Of a stretch of DNA of 64,000 nt, positions 31,559-40,481 are shown one piece after another. The position numbers were made by a program, and so were the translations under genes. The stretch covers positions 80,760 through 144,759 of the forward strand of contig NZ_BJYX01000010.1 of assembly GCF_007991735.1 (NCBI RefSeq), in the 5' to 3' direction. Under the pieces are notes generated by a model that had not been told where the DNA came from, did no database searches, and saw nothing but the letters and a program-made list of their open reading frames with translations. This DNA comes from Terrabacter aerolatus. GTDB lineage: Bacteria; Actinomycetota; Actinomycetes; Actinomycetales; Dermatophilaceae. Positions within the stretch are counted from its first letter, which is position 1. Each line of letters begins with the position of its first letter.

Positions 31559-32401
31559 TCAGCGCAGCGGCACGTCAAGCGCGCGGTAGACCATGAGCGA
31601 CACGGCGTTGACCGTGTCCCGGCCGTAGGTGAAGCCGTTGGGGCTGCGCGAGAGGATCGCGAGGGAGTACCACCGGTTGTTGCCGTGGACGTAGCCGAGC
31701 GAGTTGACGCGGTACCCGCCCGTCATCGGTCCCCAGCCGTTCTTGACCGTCGTGTAGACGCTCGTCGGCAGCGGCGGGTCGCACACGCCCCAGCGCTGGG
31801 TGGCCGTCACCGTGGACATCAGCTGGCGCGCGTAGGCGCGGTTGACGACCGTGAGGTAGCCCGTCCCCACGACGACGACGCGCAGGAGCCTGACGAGGTC
31901 CCCGGGGACGGTCGTCGAGTAGCCCCACCACGACGAGCCGTACGAGCCCGTCTGCACGACGGTCGCGGACATCCCGACGTCCCGAGCCACCCGGAGGATC
32001 GAGGCGCTGCCGATCTGGGTGATGAGCGAGTCGGTGGCCGCGTTGTCGCTGTTGCGGATCATCCGGCCCGCGAGGTCCCTCTGGCTCGTGGTCACGGCCA
32101 CCCCGCGCTCCTGGCTGCGGCGCAGGAGCGTCACGAGCACCAGGACCTTGATGGTGCTGAGCGACTCGTTGCGGAAGGTGTTCCAGGTGACCTCCTGACC
32201 GGTCTGGTGGTCGTGCAGGAGCAGCCCCAGGGTGCCGACCCTCGTGCTCAGGTACGAGGAGAGCGCCGACCGCAGCGCGGCCGCGGTGTCGATCCCCGCC
32301 GCCGATGCCGTCGCCGCACCGGCGACGGAGGCGGTCGGCAGCACGAGGGCCGCCGAACCGAGCACGAAGGAGCGCCGGCCCGCCTTGCCTGAGAGATCCA
32401 T
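31559..32401 (-). CDS. Tat-exported serine hydrolase, class A beta-lactamase-like (280 aa)
   Basis: Secreted penicillin-recognising hydrolase. The N-terminus GRRSFVLGSAALVLP has a twin arginine and hydrophobic core, ending in Ala-rich cleavage sites near residue 35. The three active-site motifs are present: SxxK as SLSTIKVL, SDN as NSDNAATD, and the KTG-equivalent as KNGWGP. The usual class A glutamate (ExxLN) is not evident, so this is more likely a muralytic or DD-peptidase-like enzyme than a drug-resistance lactamase. It is divergent from the pepP gene with only 40 bp between starts. Confidence 0.87.
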   Translation of the reverse strand: MDLSGKAGRRSFVLGSAALVLPTASVAGAATASAAGIDTAAALRSALSSYLSTRVGTLGLLLHDHQTGQEVTWNTFRNESLSTIKVLVLVTLLRRSQERGVAVTTSQRDLAGRMIRNSDNAATDSLITQIGSASILRVARDVGMSATVVQTGSYGSSWWGYSTTVPGDLVRLLRVVVVGTGYLTVVNRAYARQLMSTVTATQRWGVCDPPLPTSVYTTVKNGWGPMTGGYRVNSLGYVHGNNRWYSLAILSRSPNGFTYGRDTVNAVSLMVYRALDVPLR

Positions 32402-36112: not shown

Positions 36113-36165
36113 CAGGGCTGGGCTACCAGGGCTGGCCTACCAGGGCTGGCCTACCAGGGCTGGCC
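36113..36165. repeat. 14-bp tandem repeat across the caspase stop codon
   Basis: CAGGGCTGGCCTAC is repeated 3.8 times. Read on the minus strand it encodes the final Gln-Pro-Trp-stop of the caspase-like protein and then repeats that sequence out of frame in the 3' flank. Copies are nearly identical, suggesting recent slippage. Confidence 0.9.
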
Positions 36166-37026
36166 GAACGGGACGCTCTTGGACTTGACCGGCCCCTCGA
36201 GCGTCGAGCGCTGGCTGAAGTTGCCACCCTTGAGGCCGGCGGTGACGGCGCGCAGCAGGTCGCTGCGCGTCGCGGCCGGCTGCTCCTTGAGCGCCTTGAG
36301 GAACAGGTAGGTGAAGGCCCCGTTGGACCGGCCGCCGAAGGTCGCGTCGGAGGCGGTCTGACCCGACTTGCAGGCGGCGAAGAGCACGGGCTTGGACGCC
36401 GTCGACCGGCTCTTCGTCAGCTCGACGAGGGCCCTGCGGTCGGGCCGACCGGCAGGGGCCTGGGCCCGCAGTGCCCGCGCCCGGTCCAGCCCCTTGGGCG
36501 TCGGCTGCGGCAGGAAGCGCGGCTTCCGGCCGAGCAGCTGGGCCTGCATGATCTCCTCGAGGTCCTTCAGGCCGGTGCCGCTGTGGCACGTGTCGAGGAG
36601 CACCTCGAAGAGGACGCCGGAGGGCACCCGGGCCAGGAGGTCGTGCATCTCGTCGTCGACGATGACCGTGTCCCGGTCCCACTGGTCGCCCTTCTGTCGG
36701 ATGTCGTGGCAGGCGAACGCCTCGTCGAGGTCGTCGGGCTCGAAGTCGCCGCCCGGCTCGTTCGGCAGCTGGGTGCCGTGGCTGGAGAGGGTGAAGATGA
36801 TGTGGTCCCCGGGCTTCGCCGTGTCGACGAGGGCGTTCAGGGCCGCCATGACGGCACTCTTCGTGGCGGCGGCGTCGGTGAGCACCGTCGTCGCGCTCCC
36901 GGTGAAGCCGAGCGGCTTCAAGGCCTGGGCGATGTCGTTCGCGTCGTTGACGCAGCCGGCCAGCCAGCTCGTCTGCGGCAGCGACTCGAACTCGTTGATC
37001 CCCACGCACAGAGCCCTGCGTGCCAT
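36151..37026 (-). CDS. Caspase-fold (C14 / metacaspase-like) protease (291 aa)
   Basis: Clan CD cysteine protease. MARRALCVGINEF and LAGCVNDANDIAQAL are the hallmark first strand and helix of the metacaspase/caspase fold; the catalytic His is His83 (FTLSSHGTQL) and the nucleophile Cys147 (LLDTCHSGTG). The segment CKSGQTASDATFGGRSNGAF near residues 219-238 is the usual C-terminal substrate-pocket signature. No prodomain, signal peptide or membrane segment is present, so it is cytoplasmic. AAGGAAGGA precedes ATG 37026. It is the second gene of an operon with the lipase-CHAT protein 62 bp upstream. Both catalytic residues are intact. Confidence 0.92.
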   Translation of the reverse strand: MARRALCVGINEFESLPQTSWLAGCVNDANDIAQALKPLGFTGSATTVLTDAAATKSAVMAALNALVDTAKPGDHIIFTLSSHGTQLPNEPGGDFEPDDLDEAFACHDIRQKGDQWDRDTVIVDDEMHDLLARVPSGVLFEVLLDTCHSGTGLKDLEEIMQAQLLGRKPRFLPQPTPKGLDRARALRAQAPAGRPDRRALVELTKSRSTASKPVLFAACKSGQTASDATFGGRSNGAFTYLFLKALKEQPAATRSDLLRAVTAGLKGGNFSQRSTLEGPVKSKSVPFGQPW

Positions 37027-37088
37027 GGCCGTTCCTTCCTTGTCGTGAACCACTCGGGTGAGCGGGTTCGTCTGGGGCGTATGCCGTT

Positions 37089-40000
37089 TCACACCGTCTG
37101 CAGGACCGCGTCCGGTCTCGCGTACACGACGTACGCGAGCCAGGTCGGGTCGTCCGCGTCGCGTGCCGCCGCACGCGCGAGCGCGCTGGCCCGAGACATC
37201 TGGGTCCCCTTGAGCAGCTCGTCGTAGAGCGTCTCCACGAAGACGCGGGCCGGCTCCCCGCGGACCGACCACAGGCACGAGACGAAGGCCGACGCCCCGG
37301 CGTCGAGGAACGCCTTGGCGAACCCGCCGACGGTCGTGAACAGCTCACCCGACCGTCCGGTCTGGCACGCGTTGAGGACGACGACGGGGCCGACGTCGTC
37401 CGGGCCCGTCCAGTCGAGGTTCTCGGAGACGTCGGTCGCGCTGAGGAACTGCTGTCGCACGGTGCTGCCACGCCGCTGGCCCTTGAGCAGGACCTTGGCC
37501 TCGGCGATGTCGTCGGAGCGGGCCGCCCCGTGGCCGGAGAAGTGGAGCAGGTCGAAGCCGCCTCCGCGCAGGAGCCGCTCGACGCCCGTCGGGGTGGCCG
37601 TCACCGCCGTCGCGCCCAGCCGGTCGCGGAGGTAGCCGGCCTCGGCGACGCCGACGTCGTTCTTGAACATCGGGTCGGCGTAGACCGGGCAGATCGTGCG
37701 CGCGTGGCCCCGCCGCACGCGTACCTGCTGGGGAGGGAAGCTGCCCAGCTGCCACCGCACGAGACCACCGGAGGCGAGGAAGCGGGGGGTCGTCCCCCGC
37801 TTGCCCCGCGGCGGCTTGAGGTGCAGGAGCTCCCACGGGACGACGGGCTCGTCGGTGTAGACGATGAGGTCGTGCACGAGGTCGCGGTGCGTCCAGAGGT
37901 AGGCCTGCATGTCCTCCGGGAAGAACTGGTCGAAGAGCATGGTCCCGGTGTTCTGCAGCTGCGACATCCGCTCCTGCGCCGAGAGGTCCGGGTTCTTGAT
38001 GACGTCCTCGACCTCGGCGATGCGGTAGTGCACGAACTCGTCGCGTCCCACGATCGGCGCCGACTCGAAGACGTGCGCGGGCTCCCCGGGGACGAGGCGC
38101 ACGGCATAGCTGTAGACGCGCTCCCCCGTGACCCGGCGCCCTTCGACGATGTCGAGACACGGCAGGCCGTCGAGCTGCGGCGCGTCGATGCCGGTGTGGA
38201 CCGCGGCCGTCACGGGAACCGGGGCCGCCGCCGCGGCCGGCGCAGCGGTCGTTTCGAGGGTGAGCGTGGCGACCGGGACCCAGCCCTGACGCAGCACGAT
38301 CGACACGCGTACCGGTCCGGCCGCGAGGGCCCGTACGCGGAAGGTGAGCTCGCTGGCCCAGTCCCCGCTCGGCAGGCCGAAGACCTTCGCGTCGGTCTCG
38401 AGCACCTGGGCGTTGTCCTTGGCGTAGACCTGCACGCTCACCGGCCGCTCGGCGTCGACCTGGACGGTCTGTGCCACGTGGGCGGTGCCCTCGGTCGCCG
38501 CCAGTCGCCGACGCGCCAGGCGGACGCGCACCGTCGCCTCGGCGCCGGGCACGACGGTCGACGGCATCTCCGCAGCGAGCTCGGCCGTCGTCGTCTCGTC
38601 CCTGACCGCGGCCTCCCTCGCCACGGGCCTCTTCGCCGTCGCCTTCTTCGCGGTCGCCTTCTTCGCCGTCGCCTTCTTCGCGGTCGCCTTCTTCGCCGTC
38701 GCCTTCTTCGCCGTCGCCTTCTTCGCCGTCGCCTTCTTCGCCGTCGCCTTCTTCGCGGCCTGCTCGTTCGGGGGCGGAGGGGCCTGCGCGGCGGGAGGCG
38801 GCGGCTCGGCCATGTCCAGGTCGCGGCTCCCCCCGTCGCCGGACGTGAGGACGGGCCCGGCGGTCATCCAGGCGGGCAGGTGGCTCGCGTCGTCGGAGGC
38901 GCCGAGCCCGAGCGGCAGCCACTGCGAGATCGCCCCGATGACCGACAGCTGCGAGAAGTAGTTGACGTGGTAGACGACGTCGTTCGTGCCGAGCGCGAAG
39001 CTGTCACGGACGTAGCCTCCCGCCGGTAGCCCGATCGCGGACATCGAGTCGGTGTCGACGACGAGGTCGTTGCGACCGTGGAAGAGTCCGTCGACGAAGC
39101 CCTCGGCGAGCTTGACCGCCAGCTCCCGGGGGAACTCCGGCGGGTTGTGGTGGTCGCCGAAGAGCGAGACGTGGAAGTCGGACGAGACGACGTGCCAGTC
39201 CGTGCCCGGCCCGGGTTGTCCGGGCTGGACCTCGTTGAGCGTGGTCACGAACGGGCCTCCAGGAGTCATGGCGGCCAGGCCGGGCACCCCGTCGTCGCCC
39301 GCGGCATACGACACGAGGTACTTCACGAGAGCACCGACACCCGAGACGACGCCGCTGACCACCGCCCCGAACGGGGCGCCCCCGGGCACGAGGGACAGTC
39401 CGGCCGCGCCGGCCATGACGAGGTTGGTGTAGAGGTCGACGAGGTCGTGCCAGCGCTCGGGGTCGGCGAGGTGGGTCCCGCCGTTGGTGGCGGCGACGAA
39501 GACGATCGAGTCGACACTCGTGCGCAGCCCCGACCCCGGGAGCACCGCCTCGACGAACGACCGCGTGACGAGGCCGCCGCGGCTGTGCGTGACGACGTCG
39601 AGGACGAGTTCGCCGTCGTGGGGCTCGAGCAGGGCGAGCAGGTCTCGCGCGTTGCTCTCGGGGTCGACGCTCAGCGTGCGGTGGTCGAAGCCGATCACGG
39701 CGTCGTAGGCCTGCACGAGGGTGTCGACGAACCCCTCCGCCCCCGGAGTGACGGCCAGGGCCCCGAACGCTCCGGCCGTCGACGAGAACGTCCCGTGGAC
39801 GAGCAGCAGCACCCGGGCGGGCCGCTCCGTCGGCAGGCCCACCTCGGCGAGCGAGGCGACCGGTCTCCACGCATCGAGCGCACTGCCCGTCACGTGGACG
39901 AGCCCGCTGTGCACGCCCGCCTCGAGGTGCTCGATGACCTTCCCCACGACGAGCGGCGCCGCGAAGCGGAGCACGATGGCCTGCAGGGCCCCGTGCGCGA

Positions 40001-40481
40001 GGTCACCGAGCAGACCGCGGTCGACCGCACGCGGGGAGGCGTCGAGCGAGCGGGAGCGAGCAGCAGGACGAGTCGGGGCCTCGGGCTGGACCCTCAGCGC
40101 GAACGAGACCGTCCGGGGTCCGCGGTCCAACGACCTCGTGCGCTCGCCGACGTCGACGGGGAGGTGCCACGAGTAGAGGCCGTCACGCTCGAGGAGGACG
40201 ACCGCGTCCTCACCGGCCGGCACGTCGACGTCGACCCCGACGGTGCCCCGCCGGTTGGCCGGTGCGGGGCCGTCGAGGTCGCGACCGCGCCGCGGCGTGA
40301 GGTCGATCCGGTCGACGACGACGAAGTCGCCGCCGCGCAGGGCCTCGACGAGGGCGGCGCGCTGGGCGTCACGCCCTCCGGAGGGCAGGTCGCGGTCGGT
40401 GCGGTCCGACGCCGGCGACGCGTCGTAGCCCCGGGGCGCGCGCACGCGCACCGCTCCTCGACCGAAGGATGCGGACGGCAT
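37089..40481 (-). CDS. Lipase-like alpha/beta hydrolase fused to a CHAT protease (1130 aa)
   Basis: Multi-domain cytoplasmic protein. Residues ~35-135: beta-rich N-terminal domain. ~220-540: serine hydrolase with the oxyanion HG (RVLLLVHGTFSS, 229-230), nucleophile Ser300 in VTHSRGGLV, and a candidate His469 in GLFHGRNDLVVD. 555-575: Pro-rich hinge. 577-617: eight KKATA repeats, strongly basic. ~640-745: a beta-sandwich-like domain. ~770-1130: CHAT protease with His984 (LLHFSGHGA) and Cys1039 (VVLNACQTG). ATG 40481 has GGAGGGG nine bases upstream; the frame stays open further upstream but without a ribosome site. First gene of the operon with the caspase-fold protease. All catalytic residues are present. 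No signal peptide seen. Confidence 0.9.
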   Translation of the reverse strand: MPSASFGRGAVRVRAPRGYDASPASDRTDRDLPSGGRDAQRAALVEALRGGDFVVVDRIDLTPRRGRDLDGPAPANRRGTVGVDVDVPAGEDAVVLLERDGLYSWHLPVDVGERTRSLDRGPRTVSFALRVQPEAPTRPAARSRSLDASPRAVDRGLLGDLAHGALQAIVLRFAAPLVVGKVIEHLEAGVHSGLVHVTGSALDAWRPVASLAEVGLPTERPARVLLLVHGTFSSTAGAFGALAVTPGAEGFVDTLVQAYDAVIGFDHRTLSVDPESNARDLLALLEPHDGELVLDVVTHSRGGLVTRSFVEAVLPGSGLRTSVDSIVFVAATNGGTHLADPERWHDLVDLYTNLVMAGAAGLSLVPGGAPFGAVVSGVVSGVGALVKYLVSYAAGDDGVPGLAAMTPGGPFVTTLNEVQPGQPGPGTDWHVVSSDFHVSLFGDHHNPPEFPRELAVKLAEGFVDGLFHGRNDLVVDTDSMSAIGLPAGGYVRDSFALGTNDVVYHVNYFSQLSVIGAISQWLPLGLGASDDASHLPAWMTAGPVLTSGDGGSRDLDMAEPPPPAAQAPPPPNEQAAKKATAKKATAKKATAKKATAKKATAKKATAKKATAKKATAKRPVAREAAVRDETTTAELAAEMPSTVVPGAEATVRVRLARRRLAATEGTAHVAQTVQVDAERPVSVQVYAKDNAQVLETDAKVFGLPSGDWASELTFRVRALAAGPVRVSIVLRQGWVPVATLTLETTAAPAAAAAPVPVTAAVHTGIDAPQLDGLPCLDIVEGRRVTGERVYSYAVRLVPGEPAHVFESAPIVGRDEFVHYRIAEVEDVIKNPDLSAQERMSQLQNTGTMLFDQFFPEDMQAYLWTHRDLVHDLIVYTDEPVVPWELLHLKPPRGKRGTTPRFLASGGLVRWQLGSFPPQQVRVRRGHARTICPVYADPMFKNDVGVAEAGYLRDRLGATAVTATPTGVERLLRGGGFDLLHFSGHGAARSDDIAEAKVLLKGQRRGSTVRQQFLSATDVSENLDWTGPDDVGPVVVLNACQTGRSGELFTTVGGFAKAFLDAGASAFVSCLWSVRGEPARVFVETLYDELLKGTQMSRASALARAAARDADDPTWLAYVVYARPDAVLQTV
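38631..38753 (-). repeat. 15-bp tandem repeat encoding (KKATA)8
   Basis: Eight near-identical 15-bp units inside the CHAT gene; only two synonymous forms of the Ala codon differ. The encoded lysine/alanine run resembles the DNA-binding tails of actinobacterial HU and histone H1-like proteins. Confidence 0.93.

Follow-up and report, generated by a model that had tools for sequence, protein, structure and literature searches.

Within a 64,000-nucleotide (nt) window of the Terrabacter aerolatus genome (contig NZ_BJYX01000010.1, positions 80,760 to 144,759), two minus-strand genes encode a lipase-fold protein that carries a CHAT protease domain (LIP-CHAT, 1130 amino acids, 37089..40481) and, 62 nt downstream, a metacaspase-type caspase of 291 amino acids (36151..37026). 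An initial annotation of the window had placed two such proteins back to back, and this is borne out at these coordinates. That the two genes form one unit is supported by their relatives, as the caspase is next to LIP-CHAT or fused with it in all 20 loci that could be tested out of the 21 best matches, and fusions occur on three branches of the tree. The reading favoured here, to which slightly less than an even chance is given, is that the proteases of this operon cut a disordered linker and thereby switch on a lipase that would likely degrade the cell's own membrane lipids.

Linkage and natural fusions

LIP-CHAT is the first gene of the pair, and the intergenic gap (37027..37088, minus strand) holds AAGGAAGG ahead of the caspase ATG, a likely ribosome site. 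Relatives were collected by a scan of named genomes, which yielded 226 from many phyla, and the best 80 of these 226 were analysed as loci, with home-made gene calls refined by frame searches. Among the 21 best-matching loci (L056-L076), one contig stops just past the gene (L073); in the other 20 the caspase either follows on the same strand after 24-110 nt (17 loci) or is part of the same chain (three loci), so the linkage in relatives on which the initial annotation had staked its proposal holds. The gene is found in 8/9 genomes of the genus, the missing one being a 74% complete assembly, and the caspase follows LIP-CHAT in all eight carriers. At the level of the family, LIP-CHAT is carried by 18 of 119 sampled genomes, four from the genus and 14 from other genera; the caspase is adjacent or fused in 12 of these 14, and the remaining two (L053, L054) show neither CHAT nor caspase. 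A phylum-wide search for DUF7362 matched two of 396 genomes, its own and one with a marginal match, and this scarcity despite 226 named relatives suggests that distant members escape the Pfam model or are missing from the sample. Among viral contigs there were 14 pattern matches, none of which is a relative by tblastn. A second caspase gene stands in tandem downstream at L057 (=L024, Terrabacter sp. Ter38) and L058 (=L020, Terracoccus sp. 273MFTsu3.1).

Full-length fusions of the two proteins are present in Humibacillus xanthopallidus DSM 21776 (L062), a Micrococcales metagenome-assembled genome (L067) and protein P0060, on three separate branches of a tree of 30 proteins. These branches force three changes, explained most simply by three independent fusions, in a tree where the long branches P0121, L073 and P0111 are placed unsurely. 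In the fused chains, the stretch that once formed the start of the caspase is retained. In H. xanthopallidus KV-663 (L072), lipase and caspase share one open frame of 883 amino acids, possibly an assembly error, in which a threonine-lysine repeat replaces DUF7363 and CHAT.

Domains and catalytic residues of LIP-CHAT

From the N-terminus, LIP-CHAT consists of DUF7362, the DUF7379 hydrolase, a disordered linker, DUF7363 and CHAT, all on the minus strand. DUF7362 spans residues about 8-175 (39957..40460), as placed by the Pfam match on protein P0001 (85-249, shifted by 76), and is followed by the lipase-fold alpha/beta-hydrolase core at residues about 220-508 (38958..39824; DUF7379 at 225-416), which holds Ser300, Asp472 and His505. 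Beyond the linker (residues 527-624, 38610..38903) come DUF7363, a predicted all-beta domain (residues about 637-742, 38256..38573), and the CHAT protease domain as delimited by Pfam (residues about 959-1107, 37161..37607), with His984 and Cys1039; the fold match of the CHAT region extends N-terminally to about residue 690. Pfam E-values are 1.4e-63 for DUF7362, 5.6e-71 for DUF7379, 1.6e-34 for DUF7363 and 9.7e-22 for CHAT. Ser300, His984 and Cys1039, as well as His83 and Cys147 of the caspase, are all found where they had been named.

In an alignment of 94 homologues, reaching down to about 29% identity, His229, Asp472 and His505 are kept in 94/94 and Ser300 in 93/94, and among rows having a letter at the position His984 is kept in 85/86 and Cys1039 in 85/85. 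The conservation of hydrolase and CHAT active residues, the other point on which the proposal had been made to depend, is thereby confirmed, and Asp472 and His505 probably complete a Ser-Asp-His triad with Ser300. In a rough screen of 120 homologues by pattern, ten stood out, namely six short proteins (724-985 amino acids), P0086, P0088, P0068 and P0108, of which P0086 and P0088 are true residue changes.

The structure model of LIP-CHAT has a mean predicted local distance difference test score (pLDDT) of 84.3 and a predicted template modelling score (pTM) of 0.61, with ordered domains and a disordered linker. On structure comparison its hydrolase part resembles lipases, and its C-terminal part resembles separase and Csx29. 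The hydrolase is modelled as a lipase-type fold, with Asp472 and His505 of its Ser-Asp-His triad assigned from conservation, and activity on lipids is predicted from this fold; hydrophobic residues abound in its helices 341-363 and 371-392.

The linker and a candidate cleavage motif

The linker between hydrolase and CHAT is hypervariable among relatives, whose linkers are of unrelated sequence and mostly proline- or alanine-rich. The lysine-rich linker described by the initial annotation is present, with (KKATA)8 at residues 577-616, and the repeat is not conserved; as a functional element (KKATA)8 was rejected on this ground.

A look for a cleavage site between the hydrolase and this repeat had been suggested, and a candidate, R-[GD]-[LIV], is found there as SRDLDM at Arg553 (within SRDLDMAEPP). 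After removal of those more than 70% alike, 106 of 139 clade linkers were left, and 70 of them contain R-[GD]-[LIV] against 11.3 expected, a count reached by none of 500 shuffles. The control set comprised LIP-CHAT linkers of other lineages whose flanks have no caspase match (32 of 40 kept); here the motif occurs in 11/32 against 10.8 expected, which is no enrichment; these linkers belong to other phyla and have a greater length (median 213.5 vs 98). Among 2,197 overlapping tripeptide classes scanned, R-[GD]-[LIV] ranks sixth, and the five classes above it are attributed to the hydrolase domain, at its aligned end. A wider form, R-[GDSE]-[LIV], begins 10-101 residues past the hydrolase domain; in the 19 linkers whose locus was seen to hold a caspase, the wider form occurs in 17 and the narrow form in 16; fewer than half of the 106 clade linkers come from loci checked for a caspase. 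R-[GD]-[LIV] can therefore be put forward, from sequence, as a candidate cleavage site in a disordered linker. In distant LIP-CHAT proteins (L091, L097, L103, L105, L120 and others), the region between hydrolase and DUF7363 carries an extra conserved stretch of ~140 residues (PSYVVV...YAF...PVGVV by eye).

The caspase

The downstream protein matches PF00656 (Peptidase_C14; E 4.8e-22) and a generic caspase model of PADLOC (E 1.4e-15). Its His-Cys dyad is invariant in 21/21 aligned caspases, and the presence of both the C14 fold and this dyad marks it as a metacaspase-type caspase (Peptidase C14). With the profile for the EACC1-associated caspase (NF047832) it scores 26.3 bits, below the curated 140 bits. 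The model of a lipase-caspase chain (pLDDT 76.0, pTM 0.61) resembles metacaspases and lipases, and the caspase matches the metacaspase-1 structures of Yca1 (4f6o, E 1.1e-42) and Candida glabrata (7qp0, E 4.3e-41). Its QTASDA motif, which includes Asp227, aligns with QTSADA of Yca1. Metacaspases prefer a basic P1 residue, a specificity to which the QTASDA motif is presumably tied. A [KR]-G-L sequence, similar to the linker motif, recurs in many alignment rows in the loop after the active-site half of the caspase.

Proposed mechanism and alternatives

The protease-gated lipase is favoured because of the gene order, the domains, the conserved residues, the recurrent fusion, the low-confidence linker and the clade motif. 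In the proposed mechanism, a stress would be detected, with DUF7362, DUF7363 and the CHAT domain as possible sensors, and CHAT and caspase would then undergo mutual activation or self-activation. With its probable preference for basic P1 residues, the caspase would cut at or near R-[GD]-[LIV], and the freed hydrolase would hydrolyse lipids, with helices 341-363 and 371-392 being able to enter the bilayer. Above a stress threshold, growth arrest or death would follow. A more specific version, a caspase-gated pro-lipase in which CHAT and metacaspase cut R-[GD]-[LIV] in the hypervariable linker and so set free a lipase that destroys membranes, with no nucleoside-triphosphatase (NTPase) switch, is possible and is offered tentatively; it would be the enzymatic counterpart of the protease-triggered gasdermin.

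Several observations weigh against the protease-gated lipase. Gly replaces the nucleophile Ser in P0086 and P0088, and P0086 lacks the CHAT His as well. The placement of the domains is of low confidence in both structure models. The linker motif was selected after the linkers had been seen and tested later, on rows that are related, and its controls differ in phylum and length as given above. In the other 59 analysed loci, a caspase profile trained on the own clade and applied to flanks that are in part short finds a caspase in one (L131, two genes), and no caspase is present at two Streptomyces LIP-CHAT loci, from which it follows that the caspase is dispensable for some LIP-CHAT proteins. 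At the actinobacterial loci L077 and L085 the hydrolase is present, with CHAT and caspase absent from the available flanks. The linkage of caspase and LIP-CHAT is clade-bound. Finally, the eight neighbours scanned are housekeeping genes, and the near-universal presence in the genus is unlike a typical mobile defence gene.

This last point bears on a rather unlikely alternative, according to which the pair is a physiological envelope-lipid enzyme, its proteases adjusting a lipase that serves in the remodelling or repair of membrane lipids, with the cell surviving. It is in keeping with the presence in 8/9 genomes of the genus, at a single chromosomal location flanked by proS/RIO and an acyl-CoA dehydrogenase gene, and with the lack of a clear defence gene among the eight neighbours (a scan from which a few small open reading frames were left out). 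The single weak PADLOC match among them is that of the RIO kinase to MkoA. All eight are assigned to families other than MoxR AAA, vWA, VMAP or GTPase; neither they nor the pair contain a metallo-beta-lactamase-fold (MBL-fold) pro-nuclease domain; the neighbours on both sides of the protease belong to families other than gasdermin; and no Cas protein is among the eight, no CRISPR array search having been made. Against the alternative stand the sporadic distribution outside the genus (14 of 119 sampled family genomes in other genera, and one marginal match beyond its own in 396 phylum genomes) and the conflict-system parts that accompany some distant relatives. Of the two points that had been put up for checking, co-occurrence of such pairs and a place in defence islands, the first holds in the clade, and a defence island at this locus is unsupported in view of the genus-wide presence and the housekeeping neighbours. 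Likewise, from the initial suggestion of a protease-activated lipase for suicide or defence, the activation fits the disordered linker, the clade motif and the lipase fold, while the suicide or defence role is not favoured by the 8/9 genomes and the neighbours. Close to the pair, a PF13354 (beta-lactamase enzyme family) protein is encoded at window positions 31559-32398, adjoining an aminopeptidase P gene.

It is improbable that the proteases themselves are the effectors, that is, that a CHAT-to-caspase relay degrades cell proteins while the hydrolase and its flanking domains sense or regulate. Such a relay would accord with SAVED-CHAT immunity, which runs by a proteolytic cascade (PMC11229360), and with the family, where in 59 genomes a CHAT match lies within about 1.5 kb in 17 of 28 caspase loci, eight of the LIP type and nine of other types lacking the lipase domains. 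The CHAT profile used was trained mainly on LIP-CHAT proteins, the 1.5-kb rule overlooks the C8 pair of the own genome (L005), its CHAT domain being located beyond the flank, and L144 and L156 were left out, the match overlapping the caspase at the contig edge. Opposed to a purely proteolytic output are the hydrolase triad, conserved almost without exception, and the loss of CHAT in the strain that keeps lipase and caspase (L072). In the own genome, CHAT-caspase adjacency is more than chance, as all three caspase genes abut one of its four CHAT genes, with gaps of 62, 3 and 1 nt by home-made gene calls. Two of these pairs are without a lipase (L009 7995-12224, C8, gap 3 nt; L010 7854-13023, C3, gap 1 nt), and the C3 CHAT protein carries a CBM9-like domain. 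As a general rule the linkage was rejected, since elsewhere in the class the same count gives 0/21 caspase loci vs 17/28 in the family. It may be that the CHAT-caspase relay came first and that the lipase is one of its outputs. That the linkage of lipase and caspase is inherited gene order with no joint function is very improbable, for although most loci are related and syntenic, fusions have arisen on three branches, two genomic settings occur and the same-strand spacing stays at 24-110 nt.

Distant relatives

A further CHAT or caspase gene occurs in the available flanks of 41/80 loci, in some of them distant or on the opposite strand (L098, L105, L120). L130, L133 and L135 have a separate CHAT gene directly upstream of the hydrolase gene, and in 11 Bradyrhizobium loci LIP-CHAT is preceded by genes for CHAT and for a multi-spanning membrane protein. 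Such neighbours point to a recurrent coupling of the hydrolase with clan-CD peptidases, like that in the ternary systems of Kaur et al. (2020). Parts of conflict-system type are seen at several loci: trypsin and an AAA gene read as MoxR-like at L081 and L100 (the L100 trypsin scoring below the Pfam threshold), AAA and NACHT proteins at L080 with a trypsin match likewise below it, an EAD1-trypsin gene at L105 that overlaps LIP-CHAT by its called start, divergent EAD8-CHAT, EAD8-nSTAND1 and NACHT genes at L098, and a TCAD7-CHAT gene at L130. Many other distant loci have no such neighbour.

In Bradyrhizobium and further proteobacteria (L082-L084, L086-L088, L090, L095, L101, L102, L117; L110, L130), a multi-spanning membrane protein is encoded in the vicinity of CHAT and LIP-CHAT; those of L110 and L130 are homologous (E 1.2e-36), and those of L110 and L082 weakly so (4e-5). 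A caspase encoded beside LIP-CHAT at L131 (7075-8853) has at its C-terminus a match to GDSL lipases that stays below the Pfam threshold, and is possibly another protease-lipase fusion. A Halomonas LIP-CHAT (L128, 8701-12775) extends over two overlapping frames and may be broken.

Relation to known systems

The CHAT fold is common to LIP-CHAT and TPR-CHAT/Csx29 of the type III-E CRISPR Craspase, separase being named beside the latter as a near system, and a Pfam scan of the window protein gave no TPR match. The SAVED-CHAT protease of type III CRISPR reportedly targets a caspase. This protease (8tl0; PMC11417357, PMC11229360) has a SAVED domain, which the window protein lacks, and confers immunity via its proteolytic cascade. 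Metacaspase-1 (Yca1, Candida glabrata) shares the caspase fold and aligned motifs with the window caspase, which is bacterial, a bare domain, and in an operon with lipase-CHAT or fused to it. A further near system is the lipase BlEst2 of Bacillus licheniformis (6wpx, propeptide form). We know of no partner protease for it.

Bacterial caspases act in gasdermin, nuclease and CRISPR-linked immunity, according to a report on the Canu caspase-nuclease (PMC12799240). Canu likewise couples a caspase to a second enzyme, a gated proenzyme that its caspase activates; by that account it consists of an MBL-fold nuclease and an immunoglobulin-bearing caspase and is phage-tested, whereas the pair described here has a lipase fold, CHAT and a bare caspase. 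The closest precedent is that of Kaur et al. (2020; PMC7159879), who pair a hydrolase with a caspase-superfamily peptidase in VMAP (MoxR-vWA) ternary and GAP1 systems, which are NTPase-driven conflict systems, and suggest that the two operate together. There too, an alpha/beta-hydrolase gene adjoins a caspase-superfamily peptidase; compared by description, the window hydrolase is instead fused to CHAT and followed by a second, metacaspase-type protease, with no NTPase gene among the eight neighbours. What is new is the stand-alone hydrolase-caspase form without an NTPase gene, the pairing principle having been published already. Full-text search found no papers on DUF7379, DUF7362 or DUF7363, and none on this module among the matches listed except the Kaur 2020 pairing, within a scope that leaves out subscription papers and preprints.

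Meaning of the module

If the protease-gated lipase is correct, the known outputs of bacterial caspases would be joined by an attack on lipids, for which no more than two genes supply a caspase and a CHAT protease acting on the same lipase. Through the natural fusions, the variant that lacks CHAT and the candidate motif, the published suggestion of a joint hydrolase-caspase action can be put to a direct test, and the pair would represent a testable bacterial self-destruct or stress module.
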